The notes under the pieces are model-generated. The model saw nothing but the letters and a program-made list of their open reading frames with translations. It had not been told where the DNA came from and did no database searches. The position numbers and the translations under genes were made by a program. Of a stretch of DNA of 42,488 nucleotides, positions 8,663 through 15,191 are shown in pieces. How positions within the stretch are numbered: the first letter of the stretch is position 1; every line of letters begins with the position of its first letter. The DNA comes from Terriglobia bacterium (lineage in GTDB: Bacteria; Acidobacteriota; Terriglobia; Bryobacterales; Bryobacteraceae): positions 1-42,488 of the forward strand of contig JAIQEX010000050.1 in assembly GCA_020073615.1 (NCBI GenBank). The letters run 5' to 3'.

Positions 8663-9022
8663 TTATTTGCCGCAGGTTTCCGGTTGCAGCGAGTCGGCCG
8701 CGTGGTTCACCAGGAAGGTCTGCACATCGAGGATCTGCGTATCGGGCATGATCTTGGTGAGCGCTTCAGTGCCCCCTGCGTGCTTGCCCTTCAGGAAATA
8801 CGCCTTCCATTGCGCCGTGGTCTTGGTCAGCGGAGTGACTTCGCCGCCCTCGGCGCCTTTGGTATGGCATTCCTTGCAGGTCTGCTTGAAGTAATAGCGT
8901 CCCTTGCCTTCGTTGCCCTTGGGTTGCGGCGTGCCGGCGTTGACGGCGGTGGTGAGCACGACGGCCACGGCGATAGCCGCCAGACCGCTGATGACGAATC
9001 GAAATTTATGACTCTTAGACAT
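8663..9022 (-). CDS. Exported mono-haem cytochrome c
   Basis: A 119-residue protein with a signal peptide (Lys/Arg-rich start, hydrophobic helix 10-27, cleavage near V-N-A-G) and a single haem motif C-K-E-C-H at 49-53. A Met in TKIMPDTQ is the likely sixth haem ligand, making it a class I c-type fold. It sits 54 bases upstream of the molybdoenzyme gene in the same orientation. It is therefore a plausible electron partner of that enzyme in the periplasm, either feeding electrons in or carrying them away. Confidence 0.88.
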   Translation of the reverse strand: MSKSHKFRFVISGLAAIAVAVVLTTAVNAGTPQPKGNEGKGRYYFKQTCKECHTKGAEGGEVTPLTKTTAQWKAYFLKGKHAGGTEALTKIMPDTQILDVQTFLVNHAADSLQPETCGK

Positions 9023-9093
9023 GGCTAATCTCCTTTTTCGTTGCGGGGCCGGGGACGAAGGCAGGGGATAAGGCGGCCCGAAGGGCCAACCTT

Positions 9094-9125
9094 CCCCCAG
9101 CCCCCGGCCCCCAGTCCCCAGCCCC
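9094..9125 (-). repeat. G-rich tract with five G-runs (quadruplex-prone) between porin and cytochrome genes
   Basis: On the minus strand there are five runs of four or five G separated by two- or three-base loops, which fits an intramolecular G-quadruplex in the operon mRNA. It lies in the 110-base gap between the porin stop and the cytochrome start. A small GGCCC-GAA-GGGCC stem is next to it at 9075-9087. A related tract occurs at 29177-29213 in the pyr operon. Confidence 0.6.
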
Positions 9126-9132
9126 TGCTTTT

Positions 9133-10944
9133 CTAGAACCTGGTAATAATCCCCAGCGAAACCATGCTGGCGCCGCTATACGTCGGGAAGCCGAGAATGG
9201 GCGTGGAATCGATCGCCTTGGGCGCGCCGACGTGCCAGCCCGACCCGGAGTAATCGTACAGGTACTTGATGAAATCGCCCTTGAGGATGAAGCGGTCGTT
9301 GATGCGATGGGTCAGGTACGCTTCCACCACGTTGCCGCGCGTATTGGTCTTGGGCGCGATGATGTCGTCGGAGGCTTGCGCGAAGTTGAACCAGTACTGG
9401 CTGCCGTGGTTGAACTCGAAGCCCAGCTTGGTGCGCTCATCGTTGCCGAAGTTGTAGCGCAGGCCGCCCAGCATCATGTAGCCCGAGCGATTCACGGGCG
9501 TTTCAAAGGGGTCCGACATCAGCCCGCCGAAGGGCGTGGTGGTGCCGTTGGGGCGCGTAGCCGAGAGATTGCCGCTCACGTAGAAGTCGAATGCCTTGGC
9601 CTTGCGCGAGAAGTTCATGCCGAACAGGTGAATGCCCCCCAGGTTGGCGGAAGGCGTGTAGCGCATGACCACCGGCGCGCCCACCACATCGCCCGTGAGC
9701 GGATTGTTAGGCAGCACCATCAGGCCGTTGAAGCCGTCGGTCACGTTGAAGGCGTAGGCGTAGGTGGCCTGCACCAGGGTCTTGTCGGTGGTGAACAGGT
9801 CCAGGTTGGCGCCCAGGAAGTGCGTATCCTTGAGCCGGTCCTGCGGCAGTTTGAGCAGGTTGCCGTTGCCGAAGCCGGATTCATAGCCCATACCCCAGCA
9901 CAGCCGCCAGATCATGGTGTCGGTGAACTTGTAGCCCACCGTGATGCCGTCGAACTGGTAGTCGATCAGCGCGCCCGAGGGGGTTCCGCCGCGCGGTTCG
10001 TCCTGGCGGTAGTTCATCGGGGGACCGTCGGTGGAAGGCCGCCGTCCGACCGAGACATAGAGCTTGGAGCCGCCGATATTGTTCCAACTGAAATACGCGC
10101 GCTCCACGCGCAACTGGTCCGAATTGGGGACGCCCGACGTGGTGCCGTCGATGTTCAGGCTGTTCGCCTGGCCGTTGAACACCTGGACGCCGGTGGAATC
10201 GCCGAACACTTTGTACATGCTCAGCCGGCCGGTGAAGCTGATATTGTCGGAGATCTTGGCGTCGAACTTCAGCCGCAGGCGGTTGGTGAACAGCGCATCG
10301 TTGTTGTCCGTATAAGAGGGGATCAACGTGGAAGGCATCAACATCCCGAAGAGCTGCTGCTGCAAGGGGCCGGGGAACGAAGCCATTCCCTGCTTGAGCT
10401 GGTTGAAGGTCAGGTTGTTGGTGAACTGCAGGTAGTCGGCGTAGTGTCCACTGACGGTGTTGTTGATCTCGTTCACGCTGGCCGGCGGCCGGCCCAGGAT
10501 GGGCATGGCGAACATGGTCTTGACCACCAGGTTTTGCAGTTGCATGCCGTCGTAGTGGGTGGGCACGCTGCCCGTGATGCTGTGCGCCTCGAAGCGGTAG
10601 TCGCCAGTGAGCTTGAGCCGGTCGAGCGACTGCTCGCGCTCGGTCTGCGATACGCGCTGGTCGAGCTCTTTGACCTGGGACGCCAGGTCCGCGGCCGGCG
10701 GCGGCTGCACCAGCTTCTGCGCCTGGCTCTGTTGCTCCTGTGTCTTCAGCCGCTCTTCGAGGGCGGCAACTGCCTTTTTCAGGTTCTCGAGTTCCTGCTT
10801 CAACTGATCGGGGCTGTCCGCCGCCGCGCCCGCGGCCGCACCGGACGGTGCGGCTGAGCCTGAAGCCGGGTTTTCTGCCCATAACGCCGGCCCTGCCAGT
10901 TGCAGCAGGAGCATCAGCGAGAGGACGAAAGCGATTCTACGCAT
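9133..10944 (-). CDS. DUF3373 family outer-membrane porin-like protein
   Basis: A 603-residue protein with a signal peptide (MRRIAFVLSLMLLLQLAGPALWAE), then a coiled coil at roughly 45-115 (SPDQLKQELENLKKAVAALEERL and similar). The rest is a long beta-rich domain with alternating aromatic residues and a C-terminal F. The segments LKLTGDYRFEAH and VSVGRRPSTDGPPMNYRQDEPRGG are characteristic of the DUF3373 family, found in metal- and sulfur-respiring bacteria near cytochromes. A 16- to 18-stranded barrel is likely. As first gene of the molybdoenzyme operon it probably gives the substrate or product a path through the outer membrane. SD GGAGGT is eight bases before the start. Confidence 0.85.
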   Translation of the reverse strand: MRRIAFVLSLMLLLQLAGPALWAENPASGSAAPSGAAAGAAADSPDQLKQELENLKKAVAALEERLKTQEQQSQAQKLVQPPPAADLASQVKELDQRVSQTEREQSLDRLKLTGDYRFEAHSITGSVPTHYDGMQLQNLVVKTMFAMPILGRPPASVNEINNTVSGHYADYLQFTNNLTFNQLKQGMASFPGPLQQQLFGMLMPSTLIPSYTDNNDALFTNRLRLKFDAKISDNISFTGRLSMYKVFGDSTGVQVFNGQANSLNIDGTTSGVPNSDQLRVERAYFSWNNIGGSKLYVSVGRRPSTDGPPMNYRQDEPRGGTPSGALIDYQFDGITVGYKFTDTMIWRLCWGMGYESGFGNGNLLKLPQDRLKDTHFLGANLDLFTTDKTLVQATYAYAFNVTDGFNGLMVLPNNPLTGDVVGAPVVMRYTPSANLGGIHLFGMNFSRKAKAFDFYVSGNLSATRPNGTTTPFGGLMSDPFETPVNRSGYMMLGGLRYNFGNDERTKLGFEFNHGSQYWFNFAQASDDIIAPKTNTRGNVVEAYLTHRINDRFILKGDFIKYLYDYSGSGWHVGAPKAIDSTPILGFPTYSGASMVSLGIITRF

Positions 10945-12775: not shown

Positions 12776-13076
12776 TTCCTCATCATAACGTGACCGTCGA
12801 CCAGGTGCCCCGCGCCAACTGTAAACCGTTCCATTTCATACGAATAGGTTCGGCATCCAGGCGCTGGGCCCGGCCTTTGCTCCGTTCAGCCCCGTGTCAC
12901 GCCGTACAACCAATAATTTCAACGTTTTAATGGCATTTTATAGGCCCTCCCGGCGTCCCTCCCTATACTTTGGATAAGCGCGCCTTTCGTGTCCGGAGGA
13001 GGGGGGAGCCATGCGCGCGGCTCATGCCACGTGGTACTGGGAAAGCCGAATCACACCAGGGAGGAGTTCAAACGAG
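12776..13076. other. Divergent intergenic region between argD-like and radical SAM genes
   Basis: About 300 bases shared by two diverging genes. An AT-rich stretch spans roughly 12905-12943 and a TATACT box is at 12964-12969 on the plus strand. No convincing -35 lies at the right distance. Two purine-rich ribosome sites are present, one ahead of 13011 and one ahead of 13077. No gene or RNA structure was recognised. Confidence 0.4.
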
Positions 13077-15191
13077 ATGCACAAGCCGATTAAATATGTA
13101 GAAAAGGCCTTCACATATGCCGCGGGCGCGGCCTGGGTGGTCTTCGATAAACTCAACCAGATTCGCCAGAACCCGGGCTTTGTGCCGGCGTGGTCGGAGA
13201 AGCCGTTGTTGAAGTCGTGGGAGAAGACCAAGCCGCCGCTGGGCTGGCCGCGCGAGACCGATTCGCTTTGCCCGCGCTGCGTTCCCGAAATCCGGCAGCA
13301 GATTCTGGACGGCAAAACGCCGCTCGATGTGCTCTACACGGACAAGCCGGGCGAGATCAAAGCGCAGGTGATCGAGCGCGACGGCAAAATCCTGATGGTG
13401 AAGGATTGCCCCATCCACGGCCACTTCGAAGACGTGATGGCCATCGACACCGCCTTCTTCCAGCATCTCGAGGACGTTTTCCCAGGCCGCGACATCCGCG
13501 CGCACAACGACGCCACGCTGCACAAGCACGGCTCCAGCACGATCGTGCACGGGCGCGGCTCGGTGCTCACGGTGGATCTCACCAACCGCTGCAACATGAT
13601 GTGCGACCCGTGCTTCATGGACGCCAACCAGGTGGGCTTCGTGCACGAGCTGAGCTGGGAGGACATCAAGCGGCTGCTCGACAACGCCATCACCATCAAG
13701 CCCAAGCGGCAGATGTCAGTGCAGTTTTCGGGCGGCGAGCCCACCATTTCCCCCTACTTCCTGGACGCCGTGCGCTACGCGCGGGAAGTGGGCTACACCT
13801 CCGTGCAGGCGGCCACCAACGGCATCGAGTTCGCCAAGAGTCCGGAGTTCTGCAAGCAGGCGGCCGACGCCGGGCTGCGCTACGCATATCTCCAGTTCGA
13901 CGGTATCGGCAACGCCGCCAATCAGCATCGCAAGGTGGGCAACCTGTTCGACGTGAAGCTGCAGGCCATCGAGAACCTGTACGCCAACGGCGTCGATATC
14001 GTCCCGGTGATCACCATCATCAACGGCATCAATAACGAGCAGGTGGGACGCATCATCAAGTTCGCGCTCGACAATCCCAAGAAGATTCCGTTCCTTTCCT
14101 TCCAGCCGGTGTCCTTCACGGGGCGCGACGAGGCGGTCACCGACGAGCGCCGCACCGCGCAGCGCTACACCCTGTCGCACCTCGCGCACGACGTGAAGAA
14201 CCAGACCGGCCTCGGCGAGCCGGCGCGCGACTGGTTCCCCATTTCCTTCATCTCGACCTTCTCCGACTGGAGCGACCTGGTGCACGGCCCGCAGGCCGAT
14301 TGGGGGCAATTGAGCTGCGGCTGCCATCCCAACTGCGGCGTGGGGATGGCCGTGATGGTGGATAAGGAGACCCGGGAATCGGCGCCCGTGACCGCGTTCC
14401 TGAATGCCGACCGGCTGGCGCGCGACGTGGCGCGCATCAACGACGCCGCGCGCGGCAAGTGGCTCTCGGTGGCCGCCATGGCGCTGGCCGTGGCGCGCAA
14501 TTACGATCCCTTCCAGGCGCCGCGGCATTTCAAGCTCAGCGACATGATGAAGAAGTTCGACAAGACCTTCGGCGCCTCCGGCAAGAGCTACGGCAAGGTG
14601 GGCAAGGACCGCACCATGGCCGATATCGAGCAGCGCCGCCGCGACCGCTGGAACTTCCTGTTCATCGCCGGCATGTGGTTCCAGGATCTGTTCAATTACG
14701 ATTTCCGCCGCACCGAGCAGTGCATCATCCCGTATGCCACGCAGGAAGGCGAAATCTCCTTCTGCGCCTATAATACCGGCGTGGGCTGGCGCAACATCAT
14801 CGAGAAGATGCACATGACCGCGACGCTCACCAAGTGGTACGAGGAGCACGGCCGCCACGAGATCTTCGCCGGCGGCAAGGCCGTCCCCCTGCCCAGCAGG
14901 GACCACTCGATGGTGCTGCGCGAGGAGATCGTCACCAACGAAATCCAGCACGATCTTGACCGCCTGGGCATCGCCAAGAACGCGGGCGAGGAGAAGGCGC
15001 GCGCGCGCGACGCGAAGCTCAAGGAGCAGCAGGAGCACGAGCGCATGACCAGGCTCTACCGGCAGCACGTGCTGAAGGAGGAGCCCGGCCCGGACCTGGT
15101 GCAGATCGGTTCGATCCCGCCGGCGCCCGCCGCCAAGCCCGCCGCCAAGCCGGTGGAGGAGCGCGAGGAAGTCGGCAGCTTCGGGGATTAG
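13077..15191 (+). CDS. Large radical SAM protein of the MJ0619/COG1964 type (tetraether/membrane-spanning lipid synthase-like)
   Basis: A 704-residue iron-sulfur enzyme. An N-terminal Cys-rich domain has C65-P-R-C68 and later C111-P-I-H114 (K-x-C-P-x-H-G signature). The radical SAM cluster is C172-x3-C176-x2-C179, followed by the SAM-binding FSGGEPT. Further cysteines at 414, 416 and 420, and C549/C563 (EQCIIPY then ISFCAYNTG), are placed to hold auxiliary clusters. This layout is that of archaeal MJ0619 and Tes (tetraether synthase) proteins. It may join fatty acyl tails into membrane-spanning lipids in this bacterium, but that is inference. The C-terminal 65 residues are a charged helix and Pro/Ala tail. 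Start: GGGAGGAG before 13077; an in-frame ATG at 13011 has its own strong site. Confidence 0.85.
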   Translation: MHKPIKYVEKAFTYAAGAAWVVFDKLNQIRQNPGFVPAWSEKPLLKSWEKTKPPLGWPRETDSLCPRCVPEIRQQILDGKTPLDVLYTDKPGEIKAQVIERDGKILMVKDCPIHGHFEDVMAIDTAFFQHLEDVFPGRDIRAHNDATLHKHGSSTIVHGRGSVLTVDLTNRCNMMCDPCFMDANQVGFVHELSWEDIKRLLDNAITIKPKRQMSVQFSGGEPTISPYFLDAVRYAREVGYTSVQAATNGIEFAKSPEFCKQAADAGLRYAYLQFDGIGNAANQHRKVGNLFDVKLQAIENLYANGVDIVPVITIINGINNEQVGRIIKFALDNPKKIPFLSFQPVSFTGRDEAVTDERRTAQRYTLSHLAHDVKNQTGLGEPARDWFPISFISTFSDWSDLVHGPQADWGQLSCGCHPNCGVGMAVMVDKETRESAPVTAFLNADRLARDVARINDAARGKWLSVAAMALAVARNYDPFQAPRHFKLSDMMKKFDKTFGASGKSYGKVGKDRTMADIEQRRRDRWNFLFIAGMWFQDLFNYDFRRTEQCIIPYATQEGEISFCAYNTGVGWRNIIEKMHMTATLTKWYEEHGRHEIFAGGKAVPLPSRDHSMVLREEIVTNEIQHDLDRLGIAKNAGEEKARARDAKLKEQQEHERMTRLYRQHVLKEEPGPDLVQIGSIPPAPAAKPAAKPVEEREEVGSFGD

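Follow-up and report, generated by a model that had tools for sequence, protein, structure and literature searches.

The closest described system is tetraether lipid synthase (Tes, or GDGT-MAS; MJ0619, NCBIfam model NF045702, PDB entries 7TOL and 7TOM), whose superfamily, Tes/MJ0619, we take to be class D of the radical SAM enzymes. As described by Lloyd et al. (2022, PMC9433317), MJ0619 carries a rubredoxin-type iron site with the ligands C9, C12, C33 and H36, a surface cluster, [Fe4S4]N, held by C73, C77, C80 and a histidine, a radical SAM cluster, a SAM loop with Q268, S271 and R275, and a C-terminal cluster, [Fe4S4]C, which has Met439 as a labile ligand and has been proposed to keep the first chain radical bound through a C-S linkage; Tyr459 is reported to lie close to the chain end, yet not to be essential. 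On the side of the lipids, iso-diabolic acid has been reported from Acidobacteria of subdivisions 1, 3, 4 and 6 (PMC13274423); it made up 11.8-30.4% of the fatty acids of six Edaphobacter strains (PMC11354219) and 26.8-49.2% of those of five strains of the Occallatibacter group (PMC12935467), and was also reported for Pyrinomonas, an obligate aerobe of subdivision 4 (PMC4644332). The brGDGTs, which are built on the iso-diabolic chain, serve as proxies for the temperature and pH of the past (PMC13274423). The enzyme coupling the iso-C15 tails in Acidobacteria is described as still unknown in one report (PMC10087280), and the activity of the bacterial Tes homologues as unconfirmed in another (PMC11868695). 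Membrane-spanning lipids were proposed as products of the acidobacterial Tes homologues by Zeng 2022 and Halamka 2022; the former reported a single Tes homologue with 32% identity in Edaphobacter aggregans, and homologues with 42% in Koribacter and 40% in Solibacter (PMC8941075). Added here are a separate clade of these proteins (clade B), the cluster that it lacks, its occurrence in most of the class with no Tes alongside and its link with another radical SAM gene, c6. No account of clade B as a group apart from Tes was found in the article texts and listings that our literature search covered; these sequences may appear in the supplementary trees of the two 2022 studies.

The window, that is, the whole stretch of DNA analysed here, comprises 42,488 nucleotides from a Terriglobia bacterium of the Bryobacteraceae (contig JAIQEX010000050.1). 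One reading frame is open on its forward strand from position 13077 to the stop at 15191 (704 codons plus the stop), and the 704-aa product, P0001, was assigned to clade B of the Tes-like radical SAM proteins by its NCBIfam and PDB matches, alignment and tree. An alternative, longer ATG start is located at 13011; the start at 13077 (MHKPIKYVEKA...) is common to the close relatives L227 and L228. Comparison with these two relatives gave dN/dS of 0.059/0.60 and 0.062/0.74, which indicates that P0001 is under purifying selection, and the gene proposed at 13077-15191 by the first-pass annotation was confirmed. Its placement beside rhaB rather than beside lipid genes also held: the gene is followed by a rhamnulokinase-like gene (TIGR02627, 440.6 bits, below the cut-off of 527.95) and then by GlmU and YvcK, it is preceded on the opposite strand by a carboxymuconolactone-decarboxylase-like gene and an acetylornithine-type aminotransferase, and no known lipid gene was found among its annotated neighbours in the window. 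Also upstream, at 8663-10944 (minus strand), a small cytochrome c-like protein, below the Pfam cut-off, adjoins a DUF3373 protein.

Pfam searches with P0001 returned the radical SAM core (3e-19) and, at the N-terminus, the zinc-ribbon-like PF23545 (1.4e-12). The best NCBIfam model was that of Tes, NF045702 (E 8e-94, 314.9 bits, residues 61-580), below the curated cut-off of 450 bits for this equivalog, whereas the TrsS profile (NF045646) gave 206.1 bits (E 7e-61). The best PDB sequence match was 7TOL, the Methanocaldococcus Tes/GDGT-MAS (6e-62). Four other members of clade B scored 313.7-347.7 bits with the Tes model and the matches in 37 genomes of the window's class 308.3-328.1 bits; no clade-B member tested with this model (range 308.3-347.7) reached 450 bits. 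A tree was computed from 99 rows (short search, SH-aLRT support only). In it, the 57 clade-B rows formed one clade with support of 100, distinct from MJ0619 and the remaining Tes rows and set on a long stem of 2.29 changes per column. L107 and L108, two Tes rows from Acidobacteria, joined the clade-B side with support of 94; both retain the [Fe4S4]N cysteines, and L107, with 522.9 bits, lies above the Tes cut-off. Because some Tes branches are long, it is uncertain which group is the exact sister of clade B. Median identity to 16 archaeal Tes was 32.7% for 58 clade-B proteins versus 49.8% for 24 bacterial Tes. Judged by its sequence, P0001 is a Tes/MJ0619-type radical SAM protein in a distinct clade B, and not Tes by the curated cut-off. 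The kinship with Tes that had been claimed for it stands as far as the protein type, the catalytic groups and the best-scoring model are concerned; it falls short in that P0001 stays below the cut-off and sits in a clade of its own with full support, that one Tes cluster is missing from it, and that its genome encodes a separate canonical Tes.

Other relatives were found along with clade B. A row from an Acidobacteriaceae genome (L200) branches among those of family f2 in the tree. A second, divergent clade-B copy, 51-55% identical to P0001 (L056-L060), accompanies the first one in several f20 and f27 family genomes, and that of L056 has a Cys- and Gly-rich tail at its C-terminus. A third kind of Tes-like relative, group C (L219-L222), is present in four genomes of the class; it scores 178-248 bits with the Tes profile, keeps the [Fe4S4]N cysteines and lacks the presumed [Fe4S4]C ligands, and its two tested members, L219 and L220, scored best with TrsS, below the TrsS cut-off.

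The metal sites were compared in an alignment of 187 rows (109 Tes, 73 clade B, four group C and MJ0619). All the motifs listed in the first-pass annotation were found (C65-P-R-C68, K109-D-C111-P-I-H114-G, C172-x3-C176-x2-C179, C414-G-C416-x3-C420, C549 and ISFC563AYN), and clade B retains all checkable MJ0619 sites except [Fe4S4]N. The rubredoxin-type iron domain (residues 58-122, 13248..13442, plus strand; PF23545 and ligand table) has C65, C68 and C111 in the 69 ungapped clade-B rows and H114 in 68 of them. The radical SAM motif CX3CX2C, identified by Pfam and alignment (C172, C176 and C179; 13590..13613, plus strand), occurs in every ungapped row, and the SAM-closing loop QPVSFTGR (14103..14126, plus strand) has Q343, S346 and R350, aligned with Q268, S271 and R275 of MJ0619 (roles from PMC9433317), in 73/73 clade-B rows, as in a member of the superfamily. 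The cysteine ligands of [Fe4S4]C, presumed from conservation (C338, C455 and C470 in MJ0619), would be C420, C549 and C563 of P0001; C420 is kept in 73/73 clade-B rows, C549 and C563 in 71/73 each, and M533 (14673..14675, plus strand), which aligns with the labile Met439, in 73/73. The region with C549 and C563 (14721..14765, plus strand) includes Y553, at the position of Tyr459, which is tyrosine in 71/73 clade-B rows, 107/109 Tes rows and MJ0619. C420 closes the group C414-x-C416-x3-C420 (14316..14336, plus strand), of which the first two cysteines are extra: C414 is Cys in 73/73 clade-B rows versus 6/109 Tes rows, and C416 in 73/73 versus 47/109. The helices between C420 and M533 (441-494) keep their hydrophobic positions much as in Tes. 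Near-invariance over the 73 clade-B rows argues that the rubredoxin, radical-SAM and C-terminal ligands are not there by chance.

The [Fe4S4]N site, on the other hand, is absent from all clade-B rows, and the claimed MJ0619/COG1964 layout applies to the listed motifs and not to the third Tes metal motif, CPxxCGLC, which holds the ligands of this cluster. At the place of the lost site (residues 141-158, 13497..13550, plus strand; located by alignment, with pLDDT <50), C73 corresponds to a gap, C77 to His151 in 69/69 ungapped rows and C80 to Ser154 in 68/69. Loss of this cluster was rejected as proof of lost function, since 16 Tes rows also lack it, all of them archaeal loci, mostly from Methanomassiliicoccales and other Thermoplasmatota; three of these were scored and reached 572.6-593.5 bits, above the Tes cut-off. 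The archaeal rows without these cysteines are L163, L164, L166, L169-L173, L175, L176, L180, L182-L184, L186 and L187.

Both ends of the protein are specific to clade B. At the N-terminus, residues 5-31 (13089..13169, plus strand) contain an amphipathic helix and putative membrane contact, with a hydrophobic residue about every 3-4 positions in 69 clade-B rows (helix 16-31 in the model, with low pLDDT); its conserved hydrophobic face is a possible membrane contact. At the C-terminus, the charged tail that had been pointed out (14874..15188, plus strand) proved to be a feature of the clade: beyond position 600 of P0001, 71/73 clade-B rows have 38-118 aa, compared with at most 56 (median 2) in the 109 Tes rows. 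In the model this tail is part helical and part of low confidence.

An AlphaFold2 model of P0001 was obtained with a mean pLDDT of 75.3 and a pTM of 0.75, and with pLDDT <50 at residues 1-20, 39-49, 141-158, 596-629 and 668-704. Foldseek ranked 7TOM (3e-39) and 7TOL (3e-38) first, followed by SkfB (5e-8). VIA-align superposed the model on 7TOM with Z 39.3 and an rmsd of 2.7 over 482 aligned residues, the best other fold being MoaA (Z 18.3). The input consisted of P0001 plus 43 Tes rows, and the likeness of the model to Tes is a matter of compatibility rather than independent evidence. In summary, clade B resembles Tes/GDGT-MAS in its predicted fold, rubredoxin-type site, radical SAM motif, SAM loop, presumed [Fe4S4]C cysteines, labile methionine and tyrosine, and differs from it in the scores below the cut-off, the missing [Fe4S4]N, the extra C414 and C416 near [Fe4S4]C, the N-terminal amphipathic helix, the charged C-terminal tail and the separate clade.

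The window's genome (G000; 6.96 Mb, 98% complete) also encodes a canonical Tes at C140:64149-65786, which scores 572.6 bits, above the cut-off, and is 37% identical to P0001; the next match of the Tes profile in this genome, P0001 apart, was at 62.7 bits. Canonical bacterial Tes, such as this protein and the Solibacter and Koribacter homologues of Zeng 2022, belong to the same superfamily and are about 32-40% identical to clade B, but the aligned acidobacterial ones retain the [Fe4S4]N cysteines that clade B lacks. The closest named matches of the G000 Tes (81-91%) were contigs of Bryobacterales, Bryobacteraceae, Solibacteraceae and Ca. Solibacter, and once of Terriglobia. The clade-B gene was present, whole or in pieces, in 7/7 tested MAGs of Bryobacterales, Bryobacteraceae, Solibacteraceae and Ca. 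Solibacter (85-91% in the best piece), and none was found in the Terriglobia MAG tested (L114). Among the 26 named genomes tested, clade B was detected in 12 of 20 acidobacterial ones and in none of the six others.

In an even draw of the phylum, clade B was found in 138/297 Acidobacteriota genomes (best E <=1.3e-199); 165 genomes gave matches, the other 27, at E 1.6e-114 or weaker, were counted as negative, and G218 may hold a fragment. Canonical Tes, taken as at least 480 bits to the G000 Tes, was present in 30/297, 13 of them with clade B against 13.9 expected. Tes and clade B occur independently across the phylum, and the idea that they are obligate partners was rejected. In the larger class draw, clade B was present in 146/151 genomes and 66/68 genera of the window's class, and Tes above the cut-off in 16/151: 15 genomes have both, 131 clade B alone and one (G506) Tes alone. 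The remaining four (G477, G495, G540 and G574) have no clade B and no match to the Tes profile at E<=1e-60, and both lipid non-producers and draft gaps are possible explanations. When 37 genomes of the class were searched with the Tes profile at E<=1e-18, clade B was detected in 37/37, Tes above the cut-off in three and a group C relative in four others. Presence of clade B in every genome of the class is true of the 38 class members of the phylum draw and not of the larger one, and a purely acidobacterial invention was rejected, since 3/149 genomes of the phylum of a Planctomycetota MAG hold clade B. The genes from these three genomes (L250-L252) are clade-B-like, with 53-57% identity.

Gene neighbourhoods differ among the 39 loci flanking clade B that were compared, and no operon with lipid genes was found in them. 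Of the 15 class genomes with both, four have Tes and clade B within 6 kb of each other, on the same strand in G243, G107 and G065 and on opposite strands in G532 (loci L074, L217 and L218, and C32 of G532). The two are on separate contigs in the other 11, so that adjacency as a rule was rejected, and this neighbourhood link is weak.

As regards the lipids, Edaphobacter and Occallatibacter probably belong to the window's class. The lipid-gene match rests on the class and the published subdivisions, not on the same strains, and a gene so old and widespread as clade B may match any old trait. The Tes homologue of E. aggregans is, from its sequence identity, most likely clade B, because 32% fits the clade-B median of 32.7% and not the 49.8% of bacterial Tes. 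Solibacter usitatus was reported to make brGDGTs with undetectable iso-diabolic acid, and "one or both" of its Tes homologues were put forward in that study (PMC10087280); Tes, clade B or both may act there. Absence of clade B in Solibacter as the cause of the missing iso-diabolic acid was rejected, since the seven related MAGs tested all hold it. Two BcrAD_BadFG-type activation domains have been tied to the ether-forming Ger (PMC13274423). G000 encodes two large proteins with two BcrAD_BadFG stretches plus DUF2229, at L241:53-3136 and L242:1176-4760 (both minus strand), which are candidates for the ether-forming Ger/PlsA, a make-up that is not specific to Ger.

We consider it probable that clade B is a bacterial tail-to-tail coupling enzyme of the Tes superfamily, most likely joining iso-C15 lipid tails. 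Homology, predicted fold, ligand conservation and distribution were computed directly; action on lipids, substrate, product and every chemical step would follow by analogy with MJ0619. By this analogy, SAM would be cleaved at the radical SAM cluster, and the resulting 5'-deoxyadenosyl radical would abstract a hydrogen atom from the terminus of a phospholipid's iso-C15 chain; the C-terminal [Fe4S4]C cluster would then keep the chain radical bound through a C-S linkage, and a second chain radical, again made with SAM, would displace the bound chain to form the C-C bond. The product would be the membrane-spanning iso-diabolic (13,16-dimethyl C28) chain, either in tetraester form or, once the ether bonds are made, as brGDGT. 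In favour of lipid coupling we counted the Tes-profile match, the fold, the kept ligands, the presence in 146/151 class genomes, 131 of them without a Tes above the cut-off, the lipid reports, the relatives of S. usitatus and the Ger/PlsA-like proteins; against it, the score below the Tes cut-off, the missing [Fe4S4]N, the absence of an adjoining lipid gene, the lipids of S. usitatus, the 5/151 genomes without clade B and the independence from Tes. More speculatively, and with considerable doubt on our part, clade B could be a slimmed Tes, without the exposed [Fe4S4]N and with two added cysteines and a membrane-contact helix, that serves Acidobacteria, many of them aerobic, as an iso-diabolic acid synthase acting on ester-linked phospholipids together with a dedicated c6, canonical Tes acting on ether-linked lipids in some of these genomes.

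It is also conceivable, though unlikely, that clade B acts on lipid tails by the same radical chemistry with another outcome, such as a ring, a cross-link of other chains or coupling within one lipid. The related radical SAM enzymes Gms and Grs form other C-C bonds in lipids, clade B has the extra C414 and C416 and no [Fe4S4]N, and MJ0619 alone is reported to yield macrocyclic archaeol as well as GDGT (PMC9433317). Iso-diabolic acid is, however, an abundant product that needs such a reaction, and 131/151 class genomes have clade B without a Tes above the cut-off; both points count against another outcome.

A second system with the same proposed reaction as clade B, the coupling of iso-fatty acids, is Mss, the bacterial membrane-spanning lipid synthase, which has reportedly been studied in Thermotoga maritima. 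This bacterium has been described as making membrane-spanning diabolic acid lipids (PMC8788747), and a Tes-like architecture of Mss has been reported from models (2026 paper, PMC13274423). T. maritima gave no match to the Tes profile at E<=1e-18 or 1e-60, and from this search Mss is probably a branch other than Tes; going by the models, it may share the Tes fold. At 1e-3 T. maritima matches, like all 14 controls, and even 1e-18 is a loose limit, as it also admits Bacillus subtilis, Thermus and Deinobacterium. The first-pass label "Tes/MSS-like" combines two systems. Of 97 acidobacterial MAGs from the Black Sea, 11 were reported to have Mss homologues (PMC11868695). An unrelated enzyme of the Mss type, perhaps c6, might make iso-diabolic acid, clade B being accessory or otherwise employed, a reading that we regard as improbable. 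The c6 gene was detected in 95/297 Acidobacteriota genomes (E<=1e-50), 92 of which also have clade B (Fisher p 2e-37, from hand counts of related, non-independent genomes and thus descriptive only), the exceptions being G059, G116 and G205. In seven genomes, which represent five families (G238, G009, G117, G286, G292, G244 and G180), it directly precedes clade B in the same orientation. Nevertheless, c6 gave no match at E<=1e-50 in 46/138 genomes with clade B, c6 is below the cut-off of every NCBIfam model among the best 25 of the 46 matched, and the Tes model matches only 130 residues of its radical SAM core. Examples of c6 are L062:6532-7626 (plus strand) and, in G000, C170:61211-62182, apart from clade B. 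A different radical SAM gene, 32% identical to c6 over 108 aa, is located 122 bp downstream of clade B in G190 (L078:8409-9434, plus strand). Finally, that clade B is a radical SAM enzyme with a role outside lipids, such as one of the type of the (seleno)protein TrsS, with which it shares the radical SAM core and a profile match at E 7e-61, is very improbable, as P0001 scores 206.1 bits with TrsS against 314.9 with Tes and clade B keeps the presumed [Fe4S4]C cysteines that are missing in group C, whose two tested members score best with TrsS.

With iso-C15 tail coupling as the favoured role, the separation of clade B from canonical Tes parts two Tes-type proteins that go under one name in the literature consulted. 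Clade B has clear sequence marks, is near-universal in the class and usually occurs without a canonical Tes, which leaves one gene to target. From its sequence and distribution, it is a strong candidate for the source of membrane-spanning lipids in many soil Acidobacteria.
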